Notes under the pieces: generated by a model
Seen by the model: the letters and a program-made list of their open reading frames with translations, nothing else
Told to the model about the DNA's origin: nothing
The model's database searches: none
Made by a program: the position numbers and the translations under genes
DNA from: Granulosicoccus sp.
GTDB taxonomy: Bacteria > Pseudomonadota > Gammaproteobacteria > Granulosicoccales > Granulosicoccaceae
Direction of reading: 5' to 3'
DNA: 36,151 nucleotides
Assembly: GCA_023301795.1 (NCBI GenBank)
Contig: JALZVU010000198.1
Coordinates: 1 to 36,151, forward strand
Shown: positions 1,824 to 32,623 of the stretch, piece after piece
Layout: the number at the start of each line of letters is the position of its first letter
Position numbering within the stretch: position 1 is the first letter of the stretch

Positions 1824-3878
1824 TCAAGTAGCGATTTTGCCACCCCCTGTGCGTGTTACTACAACAACCGAAGGCCTGGGCGGCATCTTTTCATCGAAGT
1901 CTGGCCATCGAGTAGCGGGATCCTCAAACGTTGAATCGCGCTCGAAGCCTGCATAGCCTGATGTGCCATCCGTACCCGGATGTTGAACCGCTAAAAACAG
2001 GGTTTCAGAATCCTCGGTGAAATAAGGCCCGCACATTTCGCCACCTACTGGGCAACGAAAAAACAACTTGGCGTGGCCTCTCAGGTCGCCCTCGGTCTCC
2101 ATGGAATACAGTCCGTCGGACTTACCGGTTTTTGGCCAGTTAGAGCCTTGATCAGTTGATACCCATAGCCGTCCCTCTGCATCGACTGCACAGTTATCAG
2201 GCGAACCAAACCAGCCGTGTTCTGAGGTTTCAGGATTCCATTGTGCGCCTACATCAGCCACTGTTGGATCCCCACACTTGACAAGAATATCCCAAGTGCC
2301 GTTGGTGGCAATGGGATCACCACCAGCCTCTTTTATCTCAATGATATGGCCAAACGAGCTTTCGGGTCTCGGGTTTGCGGCATTGAGTTGATCGGCACCA
2401 CGTCGGCTGTTGTTGGTAAGCATGACGTAGGTAGTGCCATCGTCGCGTGGCTGTACATCTTCGGGGCGATCCATTGGTGTAGCACCGAGTAAATCTCCGG
2501 CAATACGTGCATCAATAACAACATCGGCCTGCGTATCAAAGCCGTTTTCTGTTGTTAGCGGGCCTTCTCCGTGAACTAGCGGTAACCACTCAATGGTGGA
2601 ATCATCATTAAATTTGGCAACATACAAGATGCCCTCAGACAGCAGTTTTTTGTTAGCCTCAAGATCCTCGCTGACCTGCCCGGCACTGACAAACTTATAC
2701 AAGTAATCGAATCGATTATCGTCGCCTGAATACACCACCACATGACCATCAGGTGACACTGTAGATTCAGCACCTTCATGTCGGAAACGTCCCATGGCCG
2801 TGTGTTTTACCGGCATCGCATCAGGATCACGTGGATCAACTTCTACAATCCAGCCGTGGCGGTTTGATTCGTTAGGTTCTTTGTCCAGGTTGAATCTATC
2901 GTGATATTTTCCCCACGCATACCATGCACCGGGTACACCATATCGCTTGTGTGAATCAAAAGCAGGATGATCCTCGCTTAGTGCTCTATTGCCTTCGGCA
3001 TCCTTGTTGTCAGTCCAGAAGTAGCCGTGGAAGTTCTCTTCAGCCATCAGATAGGTTCCCCAAGGCGTCATACCTCCCGCACAGTTGTTGAATGTACCTA
3101 CTACCGTCATGCCATCCGGGTGCTCTGAGGTTTTCATTCGCGCATGGCCTGCCGCTGGGCCATCGATCATCATGGTTGTGTCGTCTGCTGTAATGCGCCG
3201 GTTGTAGGCGCTGTCCTTTACCAGTGCCCACTTGCCATTTGCATCAAGCGCAATCTCAACCACGGTGCCGCCGTGTGCTGCCATTTCGATGTCCACAAGT
3301 TCAGGGGTCATCCCTGCAAATTCCATTCTGTCTTGACGCCCAAGTTTTGGGAACATGACCTCTTCATTGGTGTACTCGTGATTCACACACAGCAAGCCAC
3401 GGCCGGGCTCGAGTTCCGTGTAGCCCACGTAGTCGTTGTTATAGCCAAACTGCTTGAGCTGTGCGGCAGCAGATTGGTTGTAGACATCGAAATCAGGTGC
3501 ATCTTCTGTGATCGGGTCACCCCATCGAAGTAGTATATTTGCGTCATACCCCTCAGCGATGTGATGTGTTTGATCATTGCCACTGGCAAGCTCGGTAAAT
3601 TTGTAACGATCAGCGGTGCTGCCAGCAAGCTTGCCAGCCGCTATATCTGTTGCTGCCGCTACGGGGGAGGATGTTGTGAATGCTGCAGGTCCGAATAGTG
3701 CGGCTGCCGCTGAGACTCCCAAAGAGCCTTTTAAGAACTCACGTCTGCCAAAGCGACGATGAATGATGTCGCCAATGGTGTTCTCTAAATGCGGATTGGT
3801 GGGAATGTCGTCGAAGGCCTCATACGCCTCTGCCTTGTTGCCGATAGTCGGATCGTTGATGATGTCCTTTCTAGTCAC
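1824..3878 (-). CDS. PhoX-family phosphatase (DUF839), Tat-exported
   Basis: This 684-residue protein belongs to the PhoX/DUF839 family of calcium- and iron-dependent alkaline phosphatases, which release phosphate from organic esters in the periplasm. The N-terminus carries a twin-arginine signal, RREFLK at 45-50, followed by an alanine-rich hydrophobic stretch (52-67) and an Ala-rich cleavage region, after a long 40-residue leader usual in this family. The body shows family-like segments such as GGMTPWGTYLMAEENFHGYF and CGPYFTEDSETLFLAVQHPG. The start is GTG at 3876-3878, preceded on the minus strand by GAGGT five bases upstream. Length is in the usual range. Some family members may not be phosphatases, so the activity is inferred. 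The stop lies about 60 bp from the convergent RIO kinase end. Confidence 0.88.
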   Translation of the reverse strand: MTRKDIINDPTIGNKAEAYEAFDDIPTNPHLENTIGDIIHRRFGRREFLKGSLGVSAAAALFGPAAFTTSSPVAAATDIAAGKLAGSTADRYKFTELASGNDQTHHIAEGYDANILLRWGDPITEDAPDFDVYNQSAAAQLKQFGYNNDYVGYTELEPGRGLLCVNHEYTNEEVMFPKLGRQDRMEFAGMTPELVDIEMAAHGGTVVEIALDANGKWALVKDSAYNRRITADDTTMMIDGPAAGHARMKTSEHPDGMTVVGTFNNCAGGMTPWGTYLMAEENFHGYFWTDNKDAEGNRALSEDHPAFDSHKRYGVPGAWYAWGKYHDRFNLDKEPNESNRHGWIVEVDPRDPDAMPVKHTAMGRFRHEGAESTVSPDGHVVVYSGDDNRFDYLYKFVSAGQVSEDLEANKKLLSEGILYVAKFNDDSTIEWLPLVHGEGPLTTENGFDTQADVVIDARIAGDLLGATPMDRPEDVQPRDDGTTYVMLTNNSRRGADQLNAANPRPESSFGHIIEIKEAGGDPIATNGTWDILVKCGDPTVADVGAQWNPETSEHGWFGSPDNCAVDAEGRLWVSTDQGSNWPKTGKSDGLYSMETEGDLRGHAKLFFRCPVGGEMCGPYFTEDSETLFLAVQHPGTDGTSGYAGFERDSTFEDPATRWPDFDEKMPPRPSVVVVTRTGGGKIAT

Positions 3879-5465: not shown

Positions 5466-5493
5466 AGCAGCCGTTTAACGGGCTGCTGTTTTT
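5466..5493. terminator. Bidirectional rho-independent terminator
   Basis: AGCAGCC (5466-5472) pairs with GGCTGCT (5481-5487) around an 8-base loop. GTTTTT follows on the plus strand and an A-run (5460-5466) precedes it, giving a T-run on the minus strand. It can end both the CBS transcript, whose stop overlaps the A-run, and the convergent sucD transcript. Confidence 0.85.
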
Positions 5494-5522
5494 ACTAATA
5501 CTACTAATAGTCCTGATTATTA

Positions 5523-6434
5523 CTAGCCGATTGCCTGAAGTAGCGTCTCGCCCAATTTTGCCGGTGACGGAGACACAACAATGCCAGCTTTTTCCATTGC
5601 AGCAATCTTGTCGTCAGCGCCACCCTTACCGCCTGAGATAACCGCACCTGCGTGACCCATGGTGCGGCCCGGCGGTGCAGTTCGGCCAGCAATAAAACCT
5701 GCCATTGGCTTTTTACGTCCAAGCTTGGCTTGTTCCATTAACCATTCAGCAGCCTCTTCTTCGGCCGAACCTCCGATCTCGCCTATCATGATGATGGACT
5801 TGGTTTCATCGTCATCTAAGAACATATCGAGCACATCGATGAATTCGGTACCCTTGACAGGATCACCACCAATTCCTACAGCCGTGGTCTGTCCCAGGCC
5901 TGCGGTTGTTGTCTGAAAAACCGCTTCATAGGTGAGTGTGCCGGATCGTGATACAACACCAACAGATCCTTGCTTAAAGATGCTTCCCGGCATGATGCCG
6001 ATCTTGCACTCATTGGGTGTCAGTATGCCAGGGCAGTTGGGTCCAACCAGACGCGAACCTGAATCAGCAAGCCGTGCCTTGACTTCCACCATGTCTAAAA
6101 CGGGAACGCCTTCAGTGATGCAGATGATGAGAGGGATCTGAGCGTCAATTGCTTCGATAATGGCTGCTGCGGCACCCGCTGGTGGTACGTAGACAACCGA
6201 TGCATCTGCATTCGTTGCATCGGCGCCTTCTTTTACTGTTGCAAAGATGGGTAGCTCAATGCCCAGACCAGACTCAGCAGAAGTTGCCCACGTCGTGCCA
6301 CCTTTTTTGGGGTGGATACCGCCGACCATTTGTGTGCCGTGATAGCCCAGCGCTTGCTCTGTATGGAACGTACCAGTCTTGCCGGTAAGGCCTTGAACCA
6401 AGATACGAGTGTTCTTGTTGATCATGATTGACAT
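5523..6434 (-). CDS. sucD: Succinate-CoA ligase alpha subunit
   Basis: SucD forms the alpha subunit of succinyl-CoA synthetase, which makes ATP or GTP as it converts succinyl-CoA to succinate in the TCA cycle. The CoA-binding N-terminal region ([19 protein letters not shown]) is followed by [30 protein letters not shown] and the phosphohistidine motif [10 protein letters not shown], with His at about 261. The start MSIMINKNT lines up with the usual MSILIDKNT opening, which fixes the N-terminus. Against the 289-residue E. coli protein as I remember it, there is an extra stretch near [13 protein letters not shown] (about residues 50-62). It lies five bases after sucC on the same strand and is not joined here to sucAB or sdh genes. 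Confidence 0.97.
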
Positions 6435-6439
6435 AGTGC

Positions 6440-7633
6440 TTATCCCTTTACCGCTTTAACGATTTTTTGAGCAGCATCGTCCAGATCGTCCGCAGCGATC
6501 ACGTCCAAACCACTGTTGTTGATGATGGCCTTGCCTTCTTCCACCTTAGTGCCTTCCAGTCTTACCACTAGAGGGACTTTCAAACCGACATCTTTCACCG
6601 CTTGAACTACGCCATCAGCGATAACATCGCAACGCATGATGCCGCCGAAAATGTTAACCAGAATGCCTTTAACCTGAGGGTCGGAGGTGATGATCTTGAA
6701 CGCCGCCGTCACTTTCTCAGTGGTAGCGCCGCCCCCTACGTCCAGAAAGTTTGCAGGAGTAGCGCCGTATAGTTTGATGATGTCCATGGTGGCCATAGCC
6801 AGTCCAGCACCGTTCACCATGCAGCCAATCTCACCATCCAGAGCGATATAGGCGAGGTCATACTTGGACGCTTCAATCTCCTTGGCATCTTCTTCTGTTT
6901 CATCGCGAAGCTCTGCAATGTCAGCATGACGGAATCCGGCATTGCCGTCGAAAGATACCTTGGCATCCAGCACTCGCAGATGACCGTCTTCCAATACCAC
7001 TAGAGGGTTGATTTCCAACAGGCTCATGTCTGTTTCTACAAACGCCTTGTAGAGAATAGGGAAGAGCTTTTTGCCATCGTCGGCAGCCATACCGCTGAGT
7101 TCAAAAGCTGCATTGAGAGTAGCGCAGTCAGCATCACTGATACCGCCCAATGGATCGATACCGATAGTGTGGATTTTTTCAGGGGTATCGTGAGCAACGG
7201 TTTCTATATCCATGCCGCCTTCAGTGGATGCCACGAAAGACACTTTACTCGTCTCGCGATCCACCAGGATAGAGAGGTAGAGCTCACGATCAATTTGCGC
7301 GCCGTCCTCCAGATACAGGCGATTAACTTGCTTGCCTGCAGGGCCGGTTTGCGCCGTAACCAATGTCTTGCCAAACATCTCTTGGGCATTAGCTCGTGCC
7401 TCATCAGCGGAGAAGCTGACTCTAACGCCACCTTTGGCATCGCTGCCGAGTTCGGTGAACCGACCTTTTCCACGTCCACCCGCATGAATCTGGCTTTTGA
7501 CGACATAGACTGGCCCCGGGAGGGCTTCTATGGCGGCATCAATGTCGGCCAGTGACAGAATTGGCACACCTTCTGAGATCGGGGCGCCAAAGCCTTTGAG
7601 GAGTTTTTTCGCCTGGTACTCGTGTATGTTCAT
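6440..7633 (-). CDS. sucC: Succinate-CoA ligase beta subunit
   Basis: SucC is the nucleotide-binding beta subunit of succinyl-CoA synthetase. The 397-residue product opens [16 protein letters not shown], has an ATP-grasp domain with [14 protein letters not shown] near residues 46-59, and carries the C-terminal ligase-CoA region with [14 protein letters not shown] and [14 protein letters not shown]. These are the standard landmarks, and the length is close to that of E. coli SucC (388). Whether ADP or GDP is used cannot be told. sucC and sucD form a two-gene operon on the minus strand, divergent from the oxalate regulator. The start has only a weak GAG ribosome-binding site. Confidence 0.97.
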
Positions 7634-7986
7634 AGTGTCTCGATGTCCGGATGCATCAGCATAGGTTGTTAACTACTAAGGATGGTGTGGTCGTTATTGG
7701 CAAGCGTTGAGCGTCGTGCCAGCCGTGAATGCTCTTATGATAACTTTTCGTGACGGCTTAGACCGTAGATTGGGTAACCTGCTCCCACTATTTAATGGAT
7801 AGGCGACAGTTATCAGCGGCTAATCCGCACCGAAAGCTGCATAAATGAGGATATACCGCCATTTCAGGTTCATCCCACCGCGTACAGCCTTCAATTAGCG
7901 ACCAGTGCTTGACTCGACTAAAATGCGGTGTATGGTATACCAAGTACCAGCCTATGACGGTTTGGAATGACACCTTGGTGAATTCG
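7634..7986. promoter_or_regulatory. Divergent region between sucC and the GntR regulator
   Basis: This 353-bp gap holds the sucC promoter (minus strand, not clearly visible) and the GntR promoter (annotated separately). An in-frame TTG at 7909 opens a longer reading frame, but that TTG falls inside the predicted -35 box, so 7909-7986 is better read as promoter and leader. A short inverted repeat AGCCGT/ACGGCT lies at 7721-7758. I see no gene or RNA in the rest. Confidence 0.5.
7909..7942 (+). promoter_or_regulatory. Promoter and palindromic operator of the GntR gene
   Basis: TTGACT (7909-7914) is a good -35 box. A -10-like TATGGT lies 16 bp downstream (7931-7936). The perfect 10-bp palindrome TGGTATACCA (7933-7942) overlaps the -10. 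Palindromes with a GTATAC core are typical sites for FCD-type GntR regulators, so this is a likely autoregulatory operator of the gene that follows. The boxes are seen; binding is inferred. Confidence 0.65.
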
Positions 7987-8733
7987 ATGATTGGGCCTGC
8001 AGACAAAAAACTTTCCACCTCACTCAGCTCTCGGCTCAAGCCGGTCAGTGGGAGTTTTTCGCTCGCTGATCACGTCTACGATGTTCTGCGTTCGGCCATT
8101 CTGGAGATCGATCTCTACGATGATGACGTTGACCTGCGACTGGACGAACGCAAGCTTGCCGAGCAGCTAGGTGCTTCCCGCACGCCTGTTCGCGAGGCAC
8201 TCGCGCGATTGGCACGCGAAGGGTTTGTCGAGGTTCAGCCTCGCAAAGGTGTATTTCTTCTTCGTAAGTCGCTGCCTGAGGTCCTGGAAATGGTGGTCGT
8301 ATGGGCAGCTTTGGAGAGCATGGCCGCAAGGTTGGTCACACAGCTTGCCAGCGACGCGGACATAGCGTCCCTGCGAGCGTTGGGTGTAAAGCACAGTGAA
8401 AGTACCGGGCGTGCCGAAATATCTGAGTATTCGGCGGCCAATATTCTGTTTCATCAGCGCATTCTGGAGTTGTCTCAGTGTGTTCTATTAAAGAGTACAG
8501 CTGATGCGCTGCTGCAGCATATGCACGCGGTACGGCGAAGGGCGATGAACGAGGGCGACCGGGTTAATCGCTCAGTGGTTGATCACATGGCCATCATTGA
8601 AGCTATCGAGAACCGCGAAGGTGATCTGGCGAGCATGCTAGTGCGCGATCATACGATGAAGCTTCATGATCATATTCGCAGAACATGGTCGAAGCTTGAC
8701 GGACCTCCTGGCGCTTGCGAACAGGCAATTTAA
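7987..8733 (+). CDS. GntR/FCD-family transcriptional regulator of the oxalate genes
   Basis: The 248-residue product has a winged-helix DNA-binding domain at about 25-92, with the family-defining LAEQLGASRTPVREALARL and the wing QPRKGVFL. An FCD ligand-binding domain follows at about 98-225, with histidines in ANILFHQRIL, DHMAIIEAIE and DHTMKLHDH that usually hold a metal bound to a carboxylate ligand. I chose ATG 7987 because GGTGA precedes it by 6 bp and because the upstream in-frame starts (TTG 7909, ATG 7954) lie on or next to the promoter and operator. The gene is followed 47 bp later by oxc, so oxalate, oxalyl-CoA or a related acid is a plausible effector. This role is inferred from position. 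Confidence 0.9.
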   Translation: MIGPADKKLSTSLSSRLKPVSGSFSLADHVYDVLRSAILEIDLYDDDVDLRLDERKLAEQLGASRTPVREALARLAREGFVEVQPRKGVFLLRKSLPEVLEMVVVWAALESMAARLVTQLASDADIASLRALGVKHSESTGRAEISEYSAANILFHQRILELSQCVLLKSTADALLQHMHAVRRRAMNEGDRVNRSVVDHMAIIEAIENREGDLASMLVRDHTMKLHDHIRRTWSKLDGPPGACEQAI

Positions 8734-8780: not shown

Positions 8781-10529
8781 ATGGTGGCGGACGCTCAAGT
8801 GCAAAATGATATAGCAGTAGACAGCTCAGAAGAGCAAGACTTGACTGATGGGTTTCATCTTCTGATCGAAGCGCTTCAACTGAACGGATTACACACGATC
8901 TATGGTGTGCCTGGCATCCCAATTACGGATCTGGGGCGTATGGCTCAAGCACAGGGTATGCGCGTAATCTCTTTTCGACATGAGCAGCACGCTGGAAATG
9001 CAGCGGCAGTAGCGGGTTATTTAACCGGCAAGCCTGGTTTGTGTCTGACGGTCTCTGCACCGGGTTTTCTGAACGGGCTTACGGCATTGGCCAACGCTAC
9101 GACAAACTGCTTCCCCATGATTCTTATCAGTGGTTCGTCAGAGCGGGAAATTGTTGATCTGCAACAAGGCGACTACGAAGAGATGGACCAGCTGGCTATT
9201 GCAAAGCCATTGTGTAAGGCAGCGTTTCGAGTTCTCAATGCAAGGGATATAGGCATTGGTGTGGCCCGTGCCATACGCGCTGCTGTATCGGGGCGTCCTG
9301 GTGGCGTATACCTGGATTTGCCTGCGGCTCTTTTTGGTCAGGTCATGGATGCCAAAGAAGGTGCGGCATCACTTCTCAAAGTGATTGATCCTGCTCCGCG
9401 TCAGTTGCCAGCGCCAGAATCAGTAGAGCGCGCACTGGGAGTATTGCGAGGTGCCAAGCGCCCCCTGATTATCCTGGGTAAAGGTGCCGCCTATGCTCAG
9501 GCGGACGACATCGTTCGCGATCTAGTCGAACGCAGTGGCATTCCTTATTTGCCCATGAGTATGGCCAAAGGTCTATTGCCAGATGATCATCCGCAATCAG
9601 CAGGTGCCGCCAGATCGCTAGTGCTGAAGGAAGCCGATGTGGTTGTCATGGTAGGTGCTCGGCTGAACTGGTTGTTATCGCATGGTAAAGGCAAGAGTTG
9701 GGGAGCTCCGGGTTCCAAGAAGTTCATACAGATCGATATCGAACCTGGTGAGATGGATAGTAACGTGGAAATCGCTGCGCCCCTGGTAGGGGATATTGCT
9801 TCGTGTGCCGCGGCACTACTCGAAGGAATGGGGGATAACTGGGCTGCTCCGCCGGCTGAGTGGTTAGCCATGGTCGAAGAAAAACGCAGTGTCAACCTTG
9901 CAAAAATGGCGCAGAAGCTTGGCGCTGATACCACGCCGATGGATTATCACTCTGCACTGGCGGCGTTGCGTCTTGTGGTTAAGGACAACCCTGACATCAT
10001 GTTGGTGAACGAAGGGGCCAATACGCTGGATTTTGCGCGCAGCATTATTGATATGTTCGAACCCAGAAAACGAATTGATGTAGGCACGTGGGGGATTATG
10101 GGTATTGGCATGGGCGCCGCGGTTGCCGCAGCCATTGAAACGGGCAATCGGGTGTTATGCATTGAAGGGGACAGCGCGTTCGGTTTTTCCGGGATGGAGA
10201 TTGAAACCATCTGCCGTTACAACCTGCCGGTGTGCATTGTTATTTTCAACAACAATGGAATTTATCGTGGAACGGATGTGAACCCTACCGGTAATGAAGA
10301 TGTAGCGCCTACGGTTTTCGTTAAGGGTATTCGTTACGACAGGATGATGGAGGCGTTCGGTGGCATCGGTGTACATGCTACATCACGAGATGGGCTTGAC
10401 GCAGCCGTTAGGGCGGCTCTTGAATCGGGTAAGCCCACACTGATCAATGCGGTTATTGATGAGGCATCTGGCACTGAGAGTGGACGTATTGGTAATCTCA
10501 ATCCTCAGAGTGTGGTTAAGAAAAAATAG
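8781..10529 (+). CDS. oxc: Oxalyl-CoA decarboxylase (thiamine diphosphate enzyme)
   Basis: Oxc converts oxalyl-CoA to formyl-CoA and CO2. The 582-residue protein matches the Oxalobacter enzyme closely over its length in stretches I recognise: [24 protein letters not shown] with the ThDP-activating Glu68, [29 protein letters not shown], and LGKGAAYAQ. The ThDP/Mg motif GDSAFGFSG begins at 463 and ends at NNNGIYRG (490-497), with Tyr495 and the C-terminal SGRI serine in place of known active-site residues. This separates it from acetolactate synthase and sulfoacetaldehyde acetyltransferase. An N-terminal extension of about 20 residues is acidic. It lies between the GntR gene and frc, so these form an oxalate operon. 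Confidence 0.96.
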
Positions 10530-10629: not shown

Positions 10630-11892
10630 ATGAAAGCACTTGAAGGCATCAGGATTCTCGATTTTACTCATGTTCAGTCAGGCCCCACCTGCACTCAGTT
10701 GCTGGCCTGGTTTGGCGCTGATGTGATTAAGGTAGAGAGGCCAGGGGTTGGTGATGCGACGCGTAAACAGCTGATGGATGTGCCCGACGCCGACAGTTTG
10801 TATTTCACCATGCTCAATCATAACAAGCGTTCCATCGAGCTTAATTCCAAGAATGAAACTGGCAAGCAAGTGCTAACACGCCTTATCGAGGAGTGTGATG
10901 TGCTGGTGGAGAATTTTGCCCCGGGCGCATTGGATCGTATGGGTTTTTCCTGGGAGCGGATACAGGAAATCAATTCGCGCATCGTCATGGCGTCTATCAA
11001 AGGTTTTGGCCCTGGCAAGTATGAGGATTGCAAAGTGTACGAAAACGTTGCTCAGTGCGCGGGTGGTTCGGCGTCCACCACAGGCTTTCGTGATGGGCCA
11101 CCGCTGGTAACCGGTGCACAGATTGGTGACTCTGGAACAGGTTTGCATTTGGCACTGGGTATTGTTACAGCATTGTTTCAGCGTGAAAAAAGCGGAAAAG
11201 GACAGAAGGTGACATGTGCGATGCAAGACAGCGTACTCAATCTTGCTCGTGTGAAACTGCGCGACCAACAGCGCTTGGCCAGTGGCCCTTTAAAAGAATA
11301 CTCGCAGTTTGGCGAAGGTATTCCCTTTGGCGAGGCAACCCCGCGCGCGGGCAACGATTCTGGCGGTGGTCAACCCGGTCGTATTGTTAAGTGCAAAGGC
11401 TGGGAACAAGATCCGAATGCCTACACCTACTTTATTATTCAGGCCGCTGTCTGGGAAAAAGTCTGCGATGTTATTGGCAAGCCAGAATGGAAGACAGAAG
11501 ACGGGTTTGCAAAGCCTGCTGACAGGCTCGATAAGTTAAACGTGATTTTTGAGGCCATTGAGCAATGGACGATGACCATGAGCAAGTTTGAGGTTATGGA
11601 CACCTGCAACCCTCACGATATTCCAGTGGGGCCCATCTTATCGCTCAAAGAGATTAGTGAAGATCAGGGCTTGTTTGATACCGGAACCATGGTCCGTGTC
11701 GATCATCCTGAGCGTGGCGAATACCTCAGTGTTGGCTGCCCTATCAAGTTGTCTGACAGCTCGGTAGAAGTTACCCGATCGCCCCTTCTGGGTGAGCACA
11801 CCTCACAGGTTCTGGAGGATGTGCTGGGCTACGATGGTGAAGCGTTGCAACAAGTTCTTGATTCGGGTGCAGTAGGTCAGGTAAAGCGCTGA
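10630..11892 (+). CDS. frc: Formyl-CoA:oxalate CoA-transferase (class III)
   Basis: Frc moves CoA from formyl-CoA to oxalate, giving oxalyl-CoA for Oxc and releasing formate. The 420-residue product starts [21 protein letters not shown], the class III CoA-transferase opening. It keeps [36 protein letters not shown] and the catalytic aspartate D167 in [10 protein letters not shown]. The mobile glycine loop, GGGGQ in Oxalobacter as I recall, reads SGGGQ here (244-248), and the stretch before it is shorter. That change is small but lies at the active site. The start has AGGT just upstream. It is 100 bp downstream of oxc and 51 bp upstream of the formyl hydrolase-like gene. Confidence 0.95.
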
Positions 11893-11943: not shown

Positions 11944-12861
11944 ATGCGTTTGATTGTGATGGGCCAGCAGGCTTTTGGAAAAGACGCACTTGATACGCTG
12001 GTAAAAGCTGCCAAGGATGAGATCGTGGCGGTGTACTGTGAGCCTGATCGGGAAGGTAAGCCTGTTGACCCTATCAAAGAGTTTGCTCTTGAGCTGGGTC
12101 TGCCTGTAGAGCAGCCAGCGCACTTCAAGGATCAGTCGACACTGGATACTCTAGCGTCCTACAGGGCTGACCTGATGATCATGGCGTTTGTGAATGTCTT
12201 TGTACCGGAGGCGGCCCGTGATACACCTGAAATGGGTTCTATCTGTTTTCATCCTTCGTTGCTGCCTTTGCATAGAGGCCCTTCAGCGGTTAATTGGCCC
12301 ATTATCATGGGTCGCGAAGAGTCGGGTTTCTCCTGGTTCTATCCAACTGACGGTCTGGACGAAGGCGATGTCCTGTTCAATTGGCAATGTTCGATAGACC
12401 CTGACGACACAGTCATCAACTTGTATTTCAAGAAAATCTATCCGGCAGCAGTTGAATCGGTACTACAGGTTTGTGAGTTGTTCCGCGCTGGCAATCCGCC
12501 ACACATTGCGCAAGATGAATCGATGGCAACCTATGAGCGACGGTGCACCACTAAGCACACGCATGTTGATTGGTTCAAGCCGGTTGATCAGGTTTATAAC
12601 CTGATTCGCGGTGCTAATCCTGCCCCCGGTGCGTGGACAACCCATGCTGGAGCGGTACTCGGTGTCTTTGATTGTGTGCGTGTGGGTGGCGATGGCGTGG
12701 CAGGACGTGTTGTGGCTATAGACGATGCAGGGGTGACGGTGCAGAGCGTTGGTGGACGTGTTCTTATCAAACGCGTCAAGCCTGATGGCCAGTCAAAACA
12801 GGCGGCCACTGAGTGGGCTGCGGCGAGTGGATTGGCGGTAGGCGATAACCTGGGTGTTTGA
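11944..12861 (+). CDS. Formyltransferase-fold protein like the hydrolase domain of 10-formyl-THF dehydrogenase
   Basis: The 305-residue protein is a stand-alone version of the N-terminal domain of 10-formyltetrahydrofolate dehydrogenase (ALDH1L1). It has the catalytic histidine in FHPSLLPLHRGPSAVNW (H103) and the catalytic aspartate in DGLDEGDVL (D142), followed by the C-terminal OB-like domain (WFKPVDQVYNLIRGANPAPGAW at about 195-218). Methionyl-tRNA formyltransferase has an asparagine two residues before the histidine. Here that position is Cys101, as in the dehydrogenase type where it is non-Asn, so I do not call it fmt. It lacks the acyl-carrier and aldehyde dehydrogenase domains. It may hydrolyse 10-formyl-THF to formate, or take the formyl group from formyl-CoA; the second idea rests only on its place after frc. 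GGAG lies 10 bp before the ATG. Confidence 0.8.
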   Translation: MRLIVMGQQAFGKDALDTLVKAAKDEIVAVYCEPDREGKPVDPIKEFALELGLPVEQPAHFKDQSTLDTLASYRADLMIMAFVNVFVPEAARDTPEMGSICFHPSLLPLHRGPSAVNWPIIMGREESGFSWFYPTDGLDEGDVLFNWQCSIDPDDTVINLYFKKIYPAAVESVLQVCELFRAGNPPHIAQDESMATYERRCTTKHTHVDWFKPVDQVYNLIRGANPAPGAWTTHAGAVLGVFDCVRVGGDGVAGRVVAIDDAGVTVQSVGGRVLIKRVKPDGQSKQAATEWAAASGLAVGDNLGV

Positions 12862-13019
12862 TAGTTTCTGATTGTGCCAGTTGAACTTCAGCCTTCTATA
12901 TGCGATCAAACAAGACAATTGAGCGGTAATTGTTTTTTCGACTGAAATGATGAAAGTGAGTGTGTGACAGATAGCATTGAAAGGCCAATGTTTGGAGTAC
13001 GGATTAATTACTAGCGAGG

Positions 13020-13883
13020 GTGGACAGCTTGATTTATAAAATAGTCATACCAGTCAGGGGAGATGGTAAAGGCGATAACGTGCTTGCCCACGCGGCGGCA
13101 TTAGCCAGACGCCTTTCGGCACATGTGGTTATTACCCATTGCCGGCCTCGTGCTGAAGACATGATGCCTTACGGTGTGCCTATTCCTCCTTCCATGCGTA
13201 AGCTTTTGATATCCCAGTCCGAAACTGTGGCTGATCAGGTAGAAGAAGGTCTTCGCAAGGAAGTTGAAGTACTCGCCGTCGAATTCAAGCTTCGAATGAC
13301 TGATCAGCCTGTGTACACCGAGGCATCAGCTTCCTGGGTAGAAGAGCAGGGTCGTCAGGTTGATATCATCAAACGCCATGGTCGCCTGACAGATCTTATT
13401 TGCGTAGCCAAACCAGATGTCGATCGTAATCTAGGTATGAATACGCTCAAGGCAGCACTGTTCAATACGGGTCGCCCAGTGATGATGTGTCCACCTGCGG
13501 ATACACCACTCGATACGCTGTGCGACAAAATTGCTATTGCGTGGAATGGATCGACCGAAGCGAGCCGTGCCGTAGCGCTTAACGTAAGTGTCATTGAGAA
13601 GGCATCCGAGGTTGTCATCCTGAGTACGGGAGACGGTGTGGAAGGTGCCGGAGCGCAAGACCTTGCACGCTACCTTGGCGAGCGTGGCTCCAACACGTCG
13701 ATACACATGTTTTCGGCAAAGAAAAAAATCGGTCAGGCATTGTTGCAGGCTGCTCAAGATGTTGGGGCTGACACCATGATTATGGGAGCCTACAGCGACA
13801 GCCATGAGCGTGAAACAATTTTTGGTGGAACCACACAGGTTGTGGTGGACAAGTCGACAATGCCGATCATATTCGTTCACTAG
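13020..13883 (+). CDS. Tandem universal stress protein
   Basis: The 287-residue product contains two UspA-like domains. The first begins IYKIVIPVRG and the second begins DKIAIAWNGSTEASRAV at about 170. It ends with the nucleotide-binding pattern MGAYSDSHERETIFGGTTQVV, matching the G-2X-G-9X-G(S/T) signature in form, and MPIIFVH. Such double Usp proteins are cytosolic and are found beside transporters and catabolic genes, often induced under stress. The first start is GTG 13020, but GAGG (13016-13019) abuts it, so TTG 13029 nine bases further on may be the true start; the product would then begin MIYKIVIPV. It precedes the TctBA transporter and may belong to the same transcriptional group. Confidence 0.85.
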   Translation: MDSLIYKIVIPVRGDGKGDNVLAHAAALARRLSAHVVITHCRPRAEDMMPYGVPIPPSMRKLLISQSETVADQVEEGLRKEVEVLAVEFKLRMTDQPVYTEASASWVEEQGRQVDIIKRHGRLTDLICVAKPDVDRNLGMNTLKAALFNTGRPVMMCPPADTPLDTLCDKIAIAWNGSTEASRAVALNVSVIEKASEVVILSTGDGVEGAGAQDLARYLGERGSNTSIHMFSAKKKIGQALLQAAQDVGADTMIMGAYSDSHERETIFGGTTQVVVDKSTMPIIFVH

Positions 13884-13944
13884 CATTAGAAGACGTTGCG
13901 TGTACGTCAGGGAAGCCCGTTTTGGTCTGGGCTAGAAATCAAAG

Positions 13945-14004
13945 TTGACAAGGAGGCTGCCCTAGAGGGTAGCGATCGATCGGTCTATTCTCGAACAGCC
14001 TCCT
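13945..14004 (+). promoter_or_regulatory. -35-like box and 9-bp inverted repeat upstream of tctB
   Basis: TTGACA (13945-13950) is a perfect -35 box, but no good -10 follows at the right distance. AGGAGGCTG (13951-13959) and CAGCCTCCT (13996-14004) are exact reverse complements 36 bases apart, with a smaller CCCTAGAGGG hairpin between them. The structure ends 21 bases before the tctB start and could be a leader regulator or operator. The tctB ribosome-binding site GAGGAAA (14013-14019) lies outside it. Confidence 0.45.
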
Positions 14005-14025
14005 AATACCCTCGAGGAAAATTTC

Positions 14026-14529
14026 ATGAAACGCGCAGAACTTGTCATGGCGGGTGTGTTGGCACTCTTGTCCATCTATCTGATGTGGAAGAGCACCGAA
14101 CTGAATGTGGGCTATATCGAAGGCGAAGGGCCTGGTGGTGGAGCATGGCCTTTCTGGTTAGCCGGCATCATGCTGATCTGTACCATTGTGATTTTTGTTA
14201 ATGCCTTAAAAGGCAAGACAGTCCCTTCTCGCTCGGAAGAACCCATGCTCGATGGGTATGGCAAGAAAATGTTGCTGCAAGTGGGTGGTGGCATTCTCGG
14301 GTTTATCGCCTTGATCGATATCGTCTCCATGTACGGGGCGATGTTCTTTTTTCTTCTCTACTACCTAGGTTTTCTCGGGCGGCACACAAAGCTCCTGACC
14401 ATCACAACGGCTGTAATAACGCCCATTGTGTTCTTCTTTTTCTTCGAAGGATTGATGCGGATAACCATGCCCAAGGGACTACCGTTTCTGGAGCCGTTGT
14501 TCAATGTTCTCTTCGATATCATCTACTAG
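14026..14529 (+). CDS. TctB-family small membrane subunit of a tripartite tricarboxylate transporter
   Basis: The 167-residue product has four predicted transmembrane helices (about 8-26, 45-63, 82-101 and 121-140) and the family pattern EGPGGGAWPFWLAGIM after the first helix. TctB is the small integral subunit of a TTT transporter; with TctA it forms the channel complex driven by a periplasmic TctC binding protein. It is 15 bp upstream of tctA, with AGGA before that start. The TTT family imports carboxylates, and oxalate or another diacid is a reasonable guess from the oxc and frc neighbours. No binding-protein gene is seen nearby. Confidence 0.88.
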   Translation: MKRAELVMAGVLALLSIYLMWKSTELNVGYIEGEGPGGGAWPFWLAGIMLICTIVIFVNALKGKTVPSRSEEPMLDGYGKKMLLQVGGGILGFIALIDIVSMYGAMFFFLLYYLGFLGRHTKLLTITTAVITPIVFFFFFEGLMRITMPKGLPFLEPLFNVLFDIIY

Positions 14530-14544
14530 GGAAGGATTTTAATC

Positions 14545-16056
14545 ATGATAGAAATTCTTGGTCAGTTAGGTGATGGCATCTTGATGTCGTTGCAGCCAGT
14601 CAACCTGATGTTGATCGTCATCGGTGTGTCCTTAGGTTTGTTCATCGGTGCCATGCCAGGTTTGGGATCTGTTAATGGCGTTGCCATTCTCCTGCCGGTC
14701 ACGTTTCTGGTGCCACCAGCATCGGCGATCATATTTCTGGCTGCTATCTATTACGGGGCTATGTACGGTGGAGCGATCTCTTCAATCACGCTCGGCATCC
14801 CAGGTGCGTCCACTGCGGTGGCCACCACCTTCGACGGAAGACCGTTGGCGCTCAAGGGCCGGGCACGGCTTGCCTTAGTTACGGCCGCTATTGCCTCATT
14901 TATTGGTGGAACGGTTGCCAACGTGCTGTTTACAGGTTTTGCACCGCTGCTGGCATCGGTTGCCTTGAGCTTTGGGCCACCCGAAATTTTCGCACTTATG
15001 CTGTTGGCGTTTGCCACGTTCGTAGGTCTTGGTGGCGATGACATTGCAAAGACCATCTTTTCAATCTGTGTCGGTCTGGTTCTGGCTTCTGTCGGTTTTG
15101 ATCAGATCTCAGGTGAGCCGCGATTAATCTTTGGTGGAATCTCTGGGTTTCTACACGGTATTAATTTTCTGGTTCTGGCCATCGGTGTCTACGGCATTGG
15201 TGAAATGCTCTGGACGATTGACAGCACACGCGGCAAGATTACAACCACCGAAACCGAGATGACTGTGAAGGGTACGGTGGATGATGCGAAAGAAGGTGTG
15301 CGTCGAGGCTGGAAAGGTACTGCTATCGGCTCTTTTCTCGGATTCTTTGTTGGTATCCTGCCTGCGGCGGGTGCAACCCCTGGCTCACTGATGGCCTACG
15401 GTGTTGCCAAGATGGTATCCAAGACGCCAGAGGAGTTTGGCAAGGGACATCCCGGTGGCGTTGCAGCCCCTGAAGCTGCCAACAATTCAGCGTCCACGGG
15501 TTCGATGTTGCCCATGCTGACACTGGGAATTCCGGGATCTCCAACGACCGCTATCTTACTGGGCGGCATGGTCATCTGGGGGTTGACTCCTGGGCCTCGA
15601 TTGTTTGTAGAGCAGCCAGAATTTGTCTGGGGATTGATAGGCTCGTTTTATATCTCTAACGTGTTTGCGCTTATTGTGAATCTTGCTGCCATTCCAATCT
15701 TTATCTGGATGCTGCGTATGCCGTTCACTCTGTTAGCGTCAATGATTTTCGTGTTGTCGGTTGTGGGAGGCTATGCGGCCACCCGTGATATGCATGATGT
15801 CTGGCTCATGCTCGGATTTGGTTTTGCAGCATTTGCATTGCGCAAGCTTGATTATCCGCTGGCTCCTGCAGTTCTTGCCATCGTGTTGGGTCCTATTGCT
15901 GAGCCAACTCTGCGTCAATCTCTGTTACTTTCATCGGGCGATCCCATGATATTTTTCAATCGTCCAATTGCAGGCCCGATTACGGTCGTAGCCTTGGTTT
16001 TGATCCTTCTGCCTCTGTTCAAGATGATTAGTCAGCGCAGGAAAGCGTCTACCTGA
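14545..16056 (+). CDS. TctA-family large membrane subunit of a tripartite tricarboxylate transporter
   Basis: The 503-residue product matches TctA in length (about 500), hydrophobicity and signature motifs: IGAMPGLGSVNGVAILLPVTF near residues 40, YYGAMYGGAISSITLGIPGAST, LPAAGATPGSLMAYG, and LGIPGSPTTAILLGGMVIWGL. It should have about eleven to twelve helices. TctA is the main translocation subunit. It is the last gene of this strand segment, followed by a hairpin at 16077-16111. The missing TctC means substrate specificity is unresolved: a distant tctC elsewhere in the genome would have to serve it. Confidence 0.93.
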   Translation: MIEILGQLGDGILMSLQPVNLMLIVIGVSLGLFIGAMPGLGSVNGVAILLPVTFLVPPASAIIFLAAIYYGAMYGGAISSITLGIPGASTAVATTFDGRPLALKGRARLALVTAAIASFIGGTVANVLFTGFAPLLASVALSFGPPEIFALMLLAFATFVGLGGDDIAKTIFSICVGLVLASVGFDQISGEPRLIFGGISGFLHGINFLVLAIGVYGIGEMLWTIDSTRGKITTTETEMTVKGTVDDAKEGVRRGWKGTAIGSFLGFFVGILPAAGATPGSLMAYGVAKMVSKTPEEFGKGHPGGVAAPEAANNSASTGSMLPMLTLGIPGSPTTAILLGGMVIWGLTPGPRLFVEQPEFVWGLIGSFYISNVFALIVNLAAIPIFIWMLRMPFTLLASMIFVLSVVGGYAATRDMHDVWLMLGFGFAAFALRKLDYPLAPAVLAIVLGPIAEPTLRQSLLLSSGDPMIFFNRPIAGPITVVALVLILLPLFKMISQRRKAST

Positions 16057-22822: not shown

Positions 22823-24613
<1,791 letters not shown>

Positions 24614-24624
24614 GGCAGATTGAC

Positions 24625-24649
24625 GACTTGCAGGCTTAGCTTGCAAGTC
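24625..24649. terminator. Perfect 8-bp hairpin between pgm and cobU
   Basis: GACTTGCA (24625-24632) pairs with TGCAAGTC (24642-24649) around nine bases, 11 bp past the pgm stop and 22 bp from the convergent cobU stop. Lacking a long T-run, it is a possible but imperfect terminator for both genes. Confidence 0.5.
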
Positions 24650-24671
24650 CATGGTTCTCATGTTTGTCAGA

Positions 24672-25241
24672 TCAGATCTGCCCTTTTATACTGAGTGGGA
24701 TGCCGGCAACCATCAACGTCACGGTATCCAACTCTTTTCCCAGCCATTGATGAAGCAGCCCCACTTCATCGCAGTAGCGCCGTGACAGCTCACCCAGCGG
24801 GGTGACACCCATGTTGGTTTCGTTGGACACGATGATAAGACGGGATGCGCACTGTTGTATTGAGTGCTGAAAATCAACCATCTCCTGCCTCAGGTAATCA
24901 CTGTCCGGGTGCATCAACAGATTTGTGACCCACAGAGTCAGGCAGTCGATGACGATACAGCCAGCGCTCTGAGTTTGTGCATAGCCATGCTCAATGTGGG
25001 TCAATGCTTCAGCTAATTTCAGTGGTTCCTCTGTGACTGCCCAGTGCTCAGGACGATCGGCCTTGTGGCGTGCTATTCGCTGCTCCATTTCTTGATCGTA
25101 GGCGGTTGCCGTTGCAATGAAGCTCACCGACGCCACCTCACGTTTTTCGTATTGGTGTGCGAGACGCTCCGCCAAACCTGATTTGCCGGACTTTACGCCA
25201 CCGAGAATGAGGCTTTTCTGCTGGATAAGATTTTCAGGCAT
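24672..25241 (-). CDS. cobU: Adenosylcobinamide kinase/guanylyltransferase
   Basis: CobU (CobP) phosphorylates adenosylcobinamide and then adds GMP in the late, nucleotide-loop part of vitamin B12 synthesis. The 189-residue protein has the P-loop GGVKSGKS (14-21), the RIARHKADRPEHWAVTEEP segment with the guanylylated histidine region, SNETNMGVTPLGELSRRYCDEVG, and the C-terminal VAGIPLSIKG. The family usually reads GGARSGKS, so Val-Lys replaces Ala-Arg. It is alone on the minus strand, convergent with pgm and divergent from the lar-associated dehydrogenase; no other cob genes are in the window. Confidence 0.93.
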   Translation of the reverse strand: MPENLIQQKSLILGGVKSGKSGLAERLAHQYEKREVASVSFIATATAYDQEMEQRIARHKADRPEHWAVTEEPLKLAEALTHIEHGYAQTQSAGCIVIDCLTLWVTNLLMHPDSDYLRQEMVDFQHSIQQCASRLIIVSNETNMGVTPLGELSRRYCDEVGLLHQWLGKELDTVTLMVAGIPLSIKGQI

Positions 25242-26315: not shown

Positions 26316-27614
26316 ATGGCCAACACGGCTCACACGTTGCTGTTCGGTCGCGGCACCATCGACATCAGCTTGCCTGATAGCGCGCAGGCGCATGTCATTC
26401 AGAAGCCAGATTTCCCGCCAGTGGCTGAGGCCAGTGAGGTGTTTGCTGCGGCCATGGCCAGCCCTGTCGACAGCGCAACTCTGGATGTTCTGTGTGAAGG
26501 CTGCAAGACGGCCTGCATCCTGATTTGTGATATTACAAGGCCGGTGCCTAATCATGTGTTTTTACGCCCGATGATAGAGGCCATGATGAGCTCTGGCATT
26601 GTGGCTGCAAACATTACCGTGCTTATTGCAACAGGTCTTCACCGCCCGAATGAAGGCGCTGAACTGGCTGAGCTTGTCAGCGACGACTGGGTATTGCAGA
26701 CAGTGAATATCGTTAATCATTTTGCGATGAATGAAGATGATCATATCGACCTTGGAGTGACGCCAACGCGTGCCACGCCGGTAAAACTTGATCGACGTTT
26801 TGTGGAGGCAGATCTGCGCATCGCCACCGGGCTTGTCGAGCCACATTTTATGGCAGGGTATTCTGGAGGTCGCAAAGTGATTGCGCCAGGCGTTGCTCAT
26901 CACGAAACGATTCGCACATTTCACAGCGCGCGGTTTATGGAAGATCCCGCGGCCACCCAATGTAATCTGGCACACAATCCATTGCACGAAGAGCAACTGG
27001 AGATCGTCAAGATGCTGGGAGACGTGTATGCGTTCAATGCTGTCATTGATGAAGATCGGAATCTTGTGCACGCCACGTTCGGTGAGGTCATTGCCAGTCA
27101 CTTGAGTGCGGTAGAGTTTGTACGCGCGTTCACTGAGATTCCTGTGGGTCGTAAATTCAATACCGTGGTTACCTCATCTGCTGGCTATCCATTAGACCAG
27201 ACCTACTATCAGACCGTGAAGGGCATGGTGACGCCTTTGGATATTCTAGAACCCGGTGGTACGTTGATTATGGTGTCAGAGTGTGCAGAAGGGATAGGCT
27301 CATCTCATTATCGTGATGCTCAGGCAAAGCTGGTATCGCTGGGGCCTGACGCTTTTCTGGAAACGCTACTGGCCAAGCAGCTGGCTGATGTTGATGAATG
27401 GCAAACAGAGATGCAATTAAAATCGATGCGCGGTGGCACCGTGTATTTGTATTCCACAGGGTTGAGCGATGCTGATCACGCCTTAACCGGTGTGCAGAGA
27501 ATTGAGAGTATTGAACAGGCTATTGTGGATAGCGTACAAGCACACGGTGATCCGCATGTGGCTATTATTCCTGAAGGGCCTTATGTCGTACCGATGTCGA
27601 AGTCCGCGTCTTAG
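26316..27614 (+). CDS. larA: LarA-family nickel-dependent racemase/epimerase
   Basis: The 432-residue protein belongs to the LarA family, which racemises or epimerises 2-hydroxyacids with the nickel-pincer nucleotide (NPN) cofactor. The residues known from Lactiplantibacillus LarA have clear equivalents with the same spacing: Arg75 (DITRPVP), H109 (GLHRP), H177 and K187 in GLVEPHFMAGYSGGRKVIAPG (His174 and Lys184, ten apart), H203 (His200), and Q299/K302 in YQTVK (Gln295/Lys298). The cofactor-anchoring lysine and catalytic histidines are therefore intact. Family members act on lactate, malate, gluconate and other acids, so the substrate here is open. The preceding dehydrogenase, 8 bp away, and LarC, LarE and LarB that follow mark one functional unit. 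Confidence 0.93.
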   Translation: MANTAHTLLFGRGTIDISLPDSAQAHVIQKPDFPPVAEASEVFAAAMASPVDSATLDVLCEGCKTACILICDITRPVPNHVFLRPMIEAMMSSGIVAANITVLIATGLHRPNEGAELAELVSDDWVLQTVNIVNHFAMNEDDHIDLGVTPTRATPVKLDRRFVEADLRIATGLVEPHFMAGYSGGRKVIAPGVAHHETIRTFHSARFMEDPAATQCNLAHNPLHEEQLEIVKMLGDVYAFNAVIDEDRNLVHATFGEVIASHLSAVEFVRAFTEIPVGRKFNTVVTSSAGYPLDQTYYQTVKGMVTPLDILEPGGTLIMVSECAEGIGSSHYRDAQAKLVSLGPDAFLETLLAKQLADVDEWQTEMQLKSMRGGTVYLYSTGLSDADHALTGVQRIESIEQAIVDSVQAHGDPHVAIIPEGPYVVPMSKSAS

Positions 27615-27706
27615 ATGTGCTGCTGACTTTTATAGATATCAATACGGGTGAATTTGCGTAATCTCATTGCGATAAAAAACAGTTTGAAAGAGCGGAGATT
27701 GCCTTC

Positions 27707-29041
27707 TTGAACAGCCTGCCTCAACATCGTCACATTCATCTGGACCCTGTCGGTGGCATAGCCGGTGACATGTTTGTCGCAGCCATGCTGGATCTGTTTC
27801 CAGAGGCGCTGGAATCTTGCATGGCAGATCTTGGTGCCTGTGGCGTACTGGAACATGTCAGCGTGTCACTGGAGTCCGGCAAGAGTCATGGCCTGGCTGT
27901 TCAGCGGTTTGTGGTCACAACCAAAAGTGACAAGCCACGGGCTACCGGTCAATACAGCGATTTAAAAGCCATGCTGCAAAACAGCTTTTTGGAGGCAACG
28001 GTACTGGCGCGTGCGCTAGAGCTGTTAAAGCTTCTGGCGAGCGCGGAAAGTCAGGTTCACGGTGTAGCGTTGGAGAACGTGCATTTTCATGAAGTTGCCG
28101 ATTGGGATTCCATTGCCGATATTGTTGCAGCGGCCAGCCTTATCGAGCGCAATCATAGGGGTAGCTGGAGCTGTGACCGTCTTCCGGTGGGCTCTGGTCT
28201 GGTCAAGACTGAGCATGGCATGTTGCCCGTGCCAGCTCCTGCTACGCAAGTGTTGCTTGAAGGTTTGGTCACATGGGATGACGGCGAACCCGGCGAGCGT
28301 GTGACGCCAACAGGAGCCGCCATTGTGAAATACCTGTCCCAGCTTAACGAGAACGCTACATCCTTTACTTGCAGGGCATCAGGTGTTGGTCTTATCTCAG
28401 GGATGGGCGCGGGTCAGCGACAACTCAAGGAGCGACCCAATGTGGTTCGCTGCCATCTCATAGACACCCTGGATGCGACGGCGGTGCCTACGGGTTATGA
28501 AGGCGCGTTACCAACACTGGATACCAAGCTGTTTGATCATGACATTGATCACGTGGCTCAGTTGAGTTTTGCCATTGACGATATGACATCAGAAGAGTTG
28601 GCTGTAGCATTGCAATACATACGACAAACCGATGGTGTTATTGATATTACTCACGCTACCTCTTTTGGCAAGAAGGGACGCATGATGTTTGATGTCACTG
28701 TGTTGTGTCAGCCTTCAATGGAGCCTGTGATTAGTCGCGTGTGCTTTTATGAAACCAGTACGTTGGGTATGCGTGTTCAACTGCTAGCGCGTCGTGTGCT
28801 GAAGCGCGAGAAGCTGATTGTGGATGACGTTAGTGGTGATGGTAACGTGACGGTTGGTGAGAAATCGGGGGCGGGTGTCAAGGTGGTACAAAGGCCTCGC
28901 CCTCCAAGCGATGAACTAGAACACACCTTGAAAGTGGAAAGTGATGACCTGCGTCGGGTGCCCGGATTGCAGTCTCGGCGCTTGCGTGCACACCGAATTG
29001 CTGAGCTGTCGGCAAATTCGGAGAAGGCATTCGGGAAGTGA
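27707..29041 (+). CDS. larC: LarC nickel insertion protein (NPN cyclometallase)
   Basis: LarC puts nickel into the pincer precursor in a CTP-dependent step, finishing the NPN cofactor. The 444-residue product opens with the conserved HIHLDPVGGIAGDMFVAAML. It continues with VHFHEVADWDSIADIVAAA (about 126-144) and the N-terminal domain motif VPAPATQVLLEGL, then a C-terminal part with EELAVALQYI and ETSTLGMRVQLLAR that matches LarC2. It is a single continuous frame, unlike the Lactiplantibacillus gene, which needs a programmed frameshift. The start is TTG at 27707, because no ATG precedes the conserved opening; GGAG (27694-27697) lies nine bases upstream. Confidence 0.93.
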   Translation: MNSLPQHRHIHLDPVGGIAGDMFVAAMLDLFPEALESCMADLGACGVLEHVSVSLESGKSHGLAVQRFVVTTKSDKPRATGQYSDLKAMLQNSFLEATVLARALELLKLLASAESQVHGVALENVHFHEVADWDSIADIVAAASLIERNHRGSWSCDRLPVGSGLVKTEHGMLPVPAPATQVLLEGLVTWDDGEPGERVTPTGAAIVKYLSQLNENATSFTCRASGVGLISGMGAGQRQLKERPNVVRCHLIDTLDATAVPTGYEGALPTLDTKLFDHDIDHVAQLSFAIDDMTSEELAVALQYIRQTDGVIDITHATSFGKKGRMMFDVTVLCQPSMEPVISRVCFYETSTLGMRVQLLARRVLKREKLIVDDVSGDGNVTVGEKSGAGVKVVQRPRPPSDELEHTLKVESDDLRRVPGLQSRRLRAHRIAELSANSEKAFGK

Positions 29042-29136
29042 TTCAAACGGCGATCGAGAGAGCATGATGTTAAGTGGTTTTGCAGTCGCTAGCTCAATAG
29101 TGAAAAAGGAACTCCTACCGTGAAGCAGGCGCAAAA

Positions 29137-29994: not shown

Positions 29995-30014
29995 TATGGG
30001 TATAGGTTATTACC

Positions 30015-32610: not shown

Positions 32611-32623
32611 AAGAGCAAGTCAG

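Follow-up and report, generated by a model that had tools for sequence, protein, structure and literature searches.

FDH (ALDH1L1) combines a hydrolase, a carrier, and an aldehyde dehydrogenase in one chain. Its N-terminal domain (Nt-FDH) passes the formyl group to the thiol of 4'-phosphopantetheine (PMC8748788), and for this domain in isolation a mechanism was proposed that begins with an attack by the thiol of mercaptoethanol (PMC4388273). For HypX, the formyl-THF decarbonylase that serves NiFe-hydrogenase maturation, formyl transfer to CoA was proposed from the structure, in which a fused enoyl-CoA-hydratase-like domain makes CO and keeps CoA bound (PMC6802093), and a 2025 review reports transfer from 10-formyl-THF to CoA by the HypX N-terminal domain as shown (PMC12134894). 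In the open-access literature, as far as it was covered, such transfer between 10-formyl-THF and CoA is described for HypX only, and no enzyme like the one presented here was found.

On the oxalate side, Frc uses formyl-CoA and Oxc remakes it, so a first formyl-CoA is needed unless Frc takes other donors. YfdE, the acetyl-CoA:oxalate CoA-transferase of E. coli, has been suggested as a primer when formyl-CoA is lacking, and for O. formigenes it was noted that priming may be unnecessary where Frc is more promiscuous (PMC3720670). In a survey from 2023, formyl-CoA hydrolase and oxalate CoA-transferase are among the activities still lacking a gene (PMC10192776). The words folate, tetrahydrofolate, and formyltransferase do not occur in its main text, and the last two are likewise absent from the main text of another oxalotrophy survey (PMC12927642).

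An FDH-like module in an oxalate operon

The window, i.e. the whole stretch of DNA analyzed (36,151 bases; contig C198 in a genome of 5.78 Mb), carries on its forward strand the genes gntR-oxc-frc-fdhh-usp-tctB-tctA, separated by 47, 100, 51, 158, 142, and 15 bp, respectively. The working label fdhh denotes the 305-aa product of positions 11944-12861, a stand-alone Nt-FDH-like formyltransferase by family. The preceding genes, frc (formyl-CoA:oxalate CoA-transferase, 10630-11892) and oxc (the ThDP enzyme oxalyl-CoA decarboxylase, 8781-10529), scored 690.3 bits with TIGR03253 and 982.3 bits with TIGR03254, above the equivalog cut-offs of 504.2 and 739.4. The first-pass annotation, which had placed a relative of the hydrolase-type FDH module inside an oxc-frc operon, 3' of frc, was thus confirmed. 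fdhh starts with ATG 51 bp 3' of frc, and the purine-rich AAGGTGGAG lies ahead of the start; a promoter and terminator scan yielded nothing exceeding shuffled sequences.

At the head of the operon, gntR (7909-8733) encodes a GntR/FCD-family regulator (PF00392 and PF07729) that was found in 70 of 80 related loci (the best 80 of 228 relatives). Its TTG start is uncertain, and only ~80-90% of its length was matched in many relatives. Downstream of fdhh follow usp (13020-13883, UspA family, PF00582), which in many relatives sits 3' of fhs, the gene of formate-THF ligase, and two subunits of a tripartite tricarboxylate-type transporter, tctB (14026-14529, PF07331) and tctA (14545-16056, PF01970), a candidate oxalate importer. 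Upstream and divergent, on the reverse strand, lie sucD (5523-6434) and sucC (6440-7633) of the succinate-CoA ligase family. They occupy the equivalent position in many relatives and possibly supply succinyl-CoA for Frc or form a malate-CoA ligase. Unlike many relatives, the window has neither fhs nor tctC between fdhh and tctB (12861-14026); fhs of the source genome is located on contig C4, adjoining formate dehydrogenase-like genes. Elsewhere in the window, genes for LarA-like, LarC, LarE, and LarB proteins, known from racemases with a nickel-pincer cofactor, were seen at 26316-30701, and a PhoX-type alkaline phosphatase (PF05787, 533 bits) at 1824-3878. With the models for lactate racemase and malate racemase, the LarA-like protein stayed below the respective cut-offs.

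Pfam divides fdhh into Formyl_trans_N (PF00551, residues 1-161, 81.7 bits against a gathering cut-off of 26.1) and Formyl_trans_C (PF02911, residues 203-293, 54.1 bits against 21.1), and its earlier description as a single-domain protein is inexact. The absence of acyl-carrier and aldehyde dehydrogenase domains, claimed at the same time, was borne out by the Pfam search, so that fdhh is not an FDH in the sense of a three-part chain; nor was a HypX-like C-terminal enoyl-CoA-hydratase-like domain detected. Among PDB sequences the top matches were nevertheless the hydrolase domains of FDH/ALDH1L1 (2bw0, 4.1e-49), and Foldseek also returned Nt-FDH first (4qpd, E 1.4e-35). An AlphaFold2 model built from 33 rows reached a pLDDT of 95.8. 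His103, Ser105, Arg111, Asp139, Gly141, and Tyr197 of fdhh are equivalent to His106, Ser108, Arg114, Asp142, Gly144, and Tyr200 of FDH, and each is unchanged in 104 of 104 family rows; the His/Ser/Asp triad and Tyr200 are therefore common to both proteins. Of the two catalytic residues named by the first-pass annotation, His103 stood, whereas "Asp142" is FDH numbering and corresponds to Asp139 here. Fdhh differs from FDH in its setting in a bacterial oxc/frc operon, in the residue at the position of FDH Ile104 (Cys in 85 of 104 rows, Gln in the other 19), and at two arginines of FDH, of which Arg58 is not conserved and Arg60 is retained in 12 of 104 rows. None of the fdhh residues proves CoA as the acceptor.

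HypX (6j1g) has the same fold as fdhh but is distant (21% identity, Z 22.0), and in its C. necator row Gly replaces the triad Ser, which fdhh keeps as Ser105. Fdhh would act like the HypX N-terminal domain or Nt-FDH, yet belongs to neither. PurU, which uses 10-formyl-THF, is a member of a different NCBIfam family, and this family (TIGR00655) was absent among the NCBIfam matches of fdhh at E <= 1e-3.

The two-domain fold is shared with Fmt, ArnA, and the sugar N-formyltransferases, and by VIA-align Z Fmt came first (1fmt, 35.9), in effect a tie with Nt-FDH (35.0). As one public record also names the gene fmt_2, fdhh might formylate another acceptor (an amine, a sugar, or a protein) or be a diverged Met-tRNA formyltransferase. 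We regard this as very improbable. The score with the Fmt model TIGR00460 was 122 bits, under the cut-off of 201.5, and the source genome possesses a separate fmt beside def. The Asn of this Fmt at the FDH Ile104 position, which we take to be significant, is Cys or Gln in the fdhh family, and the operon containing the gene named fmt_2 (plasmid CP031587.1) has no neighbor annotated for sugar or tRNA formylation. A search of the source genome with fdhh gave one other match, on contig C18, which was read, with names taken from sequence, as the housekeeping fmt beside def.

Linkage and co-occurrence with oxalate genes

Relatives were picked from genome contigs by fdhh similarity alone, and the best 80 of 228 (69-79% identity) were kept; all locus counts refer to these 80, the other 148 lying outside them. 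According to their titles, the 80 stem mainly from Rhodobacteraceae, Rhizobiaceae, and Granulosicoccaceae, the nearest titled ones being mostly Granulosicoccaceae or other gammaproteobacterial MAGs, and many fdhh-bearing oxalate degraders are apparently marine. frc was located 5' of fdhh on the same strand in 78 of the 80 loci, at a distance of <=200 bp in 76 and of 458 and 590 bp in two. oxc lay inside the locus in 74/80, 73 times upstream and on the same strand. An fhs gene started <=68 bp 3' of fdhh in 55/80, and in 44/62 when only fdhh loci with at least 1,800 downstream bases were counted. NCBIfam confirmed fhs of L009 and L109 (930.9 and 922.2 bits, cut-off 652); the other fhs calls in loci were made by tblastn against the protein of plasmid CP031587.1. 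Lack of co-conservation with oxc or frc had been named in the first-pass annotation as the finding that would speak against its reading; with linkage this strong, that objection falls away.

Two loci without oxc (L063 and L043) had it elsewhere in their genomes. In two others (L020 and L055), a different, HACL-like ThDP enzyme occupied the place of oxc, and in the genomes of L014 and L004 such an enzyme, 82% and 84% identical to that of L020, was encoded away from the locus, adjoining an frc in the case of L014. In locus or genome, all of the best 80 relatives thus had oxc (76) or the HACL-like enzyme (4). The latter, at 4885-6618 of L020 near frc, was also seen in loci L055, L146, L148, L149, L151, L152, L154, and L181. 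Its best NCBIfam match, PRK05858, stayed below the cut-off, and the nearest PDB entry was a 2-hydroxyacyl-CoA lyase (7pt3, 1.3e-73). At 25% identity, a plain oxc orthologue was ruled out. In G280, G412, G474, and G299, the frc next to the HACL-like gene exceeded the TIGR03253 cut-off. The product of Oxc is formyl-CoA, and formyl-CoA is the probable product of the HACL-like enzyme as well, which is a candidate for a second kind of oxalyl-CoA decarboxylase or another formyl-CoA-making lyase.

Some loci showed further arrangements. In L148, L154, and L156, fdhh-fhs was followed by formate dehydrogenase-like genes. L003 contained a second fdhh paralogue 3' of fhs (5475-6431); it is 46% identical to fdhh of the window and has Gln where FDH has Ile104. 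In L109 (1495-4942, genome G280), fhs and fdhh were followed by nicotinamidase and glutamine-amidotransferase-like genes; the HACL-like gene and frc of G280 reside on a separate contig from fdhh.

Only one of 72,556 plasmid records contained an fdhh relative at E <= 1e-40. This plasmid, CP031587.1 from a Paracoccaceae isolate (locus L114), has the order oxc-frc-fdhh-fhs-usp-tctC-tctB-tctA. Two of its annotations are likely erroneous, i.e. methionyl-tRNA formyltransferase (fmt_2) for fdhh (24037-24954) and argininosuccinate lyase for the gene in the tctC place (27735-28718), which is 47% identical to an L009 gene that Pfam names TctC. The operon is flanked on one side by ppc/succinyl-CoA ligase genes and on the other by genes annotated as ketopantoate reductase, glyA2, "soluble hydrogenase 42 kDa subunit" (presumably a serine-glyoxylate aminotransferase), glycerate dehydrogenase, and folD; we take the flanking set to be serine-cycle genes. 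For the gene annotated as ketopantoate reductase (32568-33620), neither NCBIfam (E <= 1e-10) nor Pfam (E <= 1e-5) gave a match. Similar panE-like matches occur near the operon in 30 of the 80 relatives, and we assume, by comparison with Methylobacterium PanE2, that the gene is a candidate oxalyl-CoA reductase.

Co-occurrence was analyzed in two genome samples. The phylum sample of 299 genomes was not chosen by fdhh; fdhh was present in four genomes at a limit of E <= 1e-60, oxc in 20, and both in three (Fisher, 0.001). Of the oxc matches, 19 were over the cut-off and the remaining one was split into two pieces. Because 17 of the 20 oxc genomes were without fdhh at the limit of E <= 1e-60, oxalate operons with fdhh form a variant that recurs but is not general, and fdhh is dispensable for oxalate breakdown as such.

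The class sample comprised 289 genomes around G047, taken as its center because it carries fdhh; its class is probably Alphaproteobacteria. The limits were E <= 1e-45 for fdhh and E <= 1e-150 for the L020-type enzyme, with at most four first-look candidates scored per genome in the ThDP searches. fdhh was found in 21 genomes, oxc over the cut-off in 12 (nine of them with fdhh), and the L020-type HACL-like enzyme in 13 (ten with fdhh). No genome (0/289) combined the HACL-like enzyme with an over-cut-off oxc, an overlap expected to be small by chance anyway for 13 and 12 occurrences. Either enzyme was present in 19 of 21 carriers versus six of 268 non-carriers (Fisher, 1.4e-22), a value that ignores phylogeny and the non-independence of genomes; the carriers span many families. 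Carriers G563 and G569 had only oxc-like and frc-like genes below the cut-offs, and G474 had a sub-cut-off oxc-like gene in addition to its HACL-like gene.

In the class sample, fdhh stood beside frc in 11 of the 21 carriers, beside fhs only in one (G280), and was unlinked in nine, including G474, where a contig end cuts the upstream side. Seven of these nine (G365, G398, G412, G414, G474, G496, and G512) encode Oxc or the HACL-like enzyme elsewhere. On a family tree of 35 rows, 32 of them labelled, parsimony gave eight oxc/HACL-like changes, a count that depends on a quick tree method by which many forks of another family tree came out weak. That other tree had human FDH and the genome's own Fmt as outgroups, and adjacent members were intermixed with non-adjacent ones on it. 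The end branches of the outgroups measured 4.4 and 10 changes per column; since these are too long, no sister group is claimed for fdhh.

The folate side: fhs and PurU

For the folate genes, 23 carriers (the 21 of the class sample plus G000 and G095) were compared with 22 genomes that have oxc or the HACL-like enzyme and no fdhh. The latter were the 17 oxc genomes without fdhh from the phylum sample plus G312, G419, G358, G510, and G560; G028, present in both samples, was counted once. fhs (PF01268) was detected in 22/23 carriers versus 9/22 comparison genomes (p 7.5e-5), one of the nine matches being a fragment, and the sole carrier without it, G365, is 82% complete. PurU (TIGR00655, E <= 1e-40), the deformylase that normally hydrolyzes 10-formyl-THF, was detected in 0/23 carriers versus 15/22 comparison genomes, and the source genome had no match at this limit. 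YfdE is a class III CoA-transferase with a fold unlike that of fdhh, and its model (NF008511) found none in 45 genomes at E <= 1e-130, which leaves no pattern from which YfdE and fdhh could be read as mutually exclusive primers.

The PurU distribution suggests that fdhh may do the job done by PurU elsewhere and favors the view that it is a stand-alone 10-formyl-THF hydrolase replacing PurU, a valve that would free formate and THF when oxalate-derived formate, via Fhs, ties up THF as 10-formyl-THF. Such a valve predicts fdhh only alongside fhs, as seen in the 22 carriers, and isolated Nt-FDH was named and assayed as a hydrolase, although its proposed mechanism opens with a thiol attack (PMC4388273). 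PurU itself, however, tracks the absence of fhs, occurring in 12/13 fhs-negative and 3/9 fhs-positive comparison genomes, which makes the pattern partly secondary; within fhs-positive genomes only, the contrast persisted, with 0/22 carriers versus 3/9 (p 0.019). A hydrolase co-expressed with Fhs would presumably amount to an ATP-burning futile cycle, and the tie of fdhh to frc and two kinds of ThDP enzyme is more specific than would be required for a formate valve. Absence of PurU is likewise expected if fdhh transfers formyl groups to CoA, as fdhh and Frc together would also deformylate 10-formyl-THF via formyl-CoA. A hydrolase function thus appears rather doubtful. Of the two roles offered by the first-pass annotation, a shunt between formyl-CoA and folate seems to fit most of the evidence, and clearance of 10-formyl-THF keeps the PurU distribution (0/23) in its favor.

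A proposed 10-formyl-THF:CoA formyltransferase

Being a stand-alone module that has the triad of FDH and is linked to formyl-CoA enzymes, fdhh is best read as a 10-formyl-THF:CoA formyltransferase, on account of its links to two ThDP enzyme kinds, frc, and fhs and of the thiol-acceptor chemistry of its relatives. Reaction, acceptor, and direction are what we infer from family, residues, linkage, and co-occurrence. Counting against this reading are the PurU distribution, the sub-cut-off genes of G563 and G569, the nine unlinked carriers, the location of fhs outside the operon in the source genome, and the 17 oxc genomes without fdhh. Fdhh would catalyze the reversible reaction 10-formyl-THF + CoA <-> formyl-CoA + THF, in which Asp139, held by His103 and Ser105, would activate the CoA thiol, comparable with the Nt-FDH proposal for the 4'-phosphopantetheine thiol. 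As free CoA has the same phosphopantetheine arm, a carrier domain would be unnecessary for a stand-alone Nt-FDH module. In this way, fdhh would join the folate pool to the formyl-CoA that Oxc and Frc produce and consume.

With regard to direction, Fhs would convert formate and ATP to 10-formyl-THF, fdhh would pass the formyl group on to give formyl-CoA, and Frc would use the latter to turn oxalate into oxalyl-CoA. Because fhs is nearly constant in carriers, a net flux from folate to CoA is modestly preferred over the reverse. We see an even chance that the whole reading holds, i.e. that fdhh is a 10-formyl-THF:CoA formyltransferase with net flux toward CoA, Fhs and fdhh feeding Frc. More tentatively, Fhs and fdhh could possibly constitute a formyl-CoA synthetase that depends on folate and works in two steps (formate + ATP + CoA -> formyl-CoA + ADP + Pi, with THF as the carrier), by which the Frc-Oxc oxalate cycle would be primed and replenished.

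The same chemistry could run in the opposite direction, formyl-CoA + THF -> 10-formyl-THF + CoA, bringing oxalate carbon into the serine cycle or purines and saving the ATP cost of Fhs; as the chemistry is common to both readings, our confidences in them overlap. With energetics of about -25 kJ/mol for 10-formyl-THF and about -30 to -36 kJ/mol for thioesters, formyl exchange between CoA and folate would lie near equilibrium, slightly toward 10-formyl-THF. The priming direction is then somewhat uphill, and the opposite flux is slightly favored, as it is by the position of the CP031587.1 operon among ppc, succinyl-CoA ligase, glyA2, glycerate dehydrogenase, and folD genes. Serine-cycle genes are nevertheless rare in the short flanks of the 80 loci (ppc 3, hpr 2, sga 1, glyA 0). 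Moreover, Fhs would become partly dispensable, yet fhs is retained in 22/23 carriers, and a drain of formyl-CoA would deprive Frc of the CoA donor that it normally uses, unless this is replaced by succinyl-CoA. We consider net flux toward folate unlikely.

Fdhh belongs to a known superfamily; judged from sequence, what appears new is a variant in the oxalate operon with a proposed function. If the transferase reading is true, a function would be assigned to a gene called fmt in at least one public record, and Fhs with fdhh would possibly explain how the cycle starts in organisms without YfdE. Formate could then also be turned into formyl-CoA in a simple way, via folate, which would be useful for synthetic formate assimilation. 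For the organisms themselves, fdhh would be a direct, reversible bridge between the folate and formyl-CoA pools and would show where oxalate carbon joins one-carbon metabolism.
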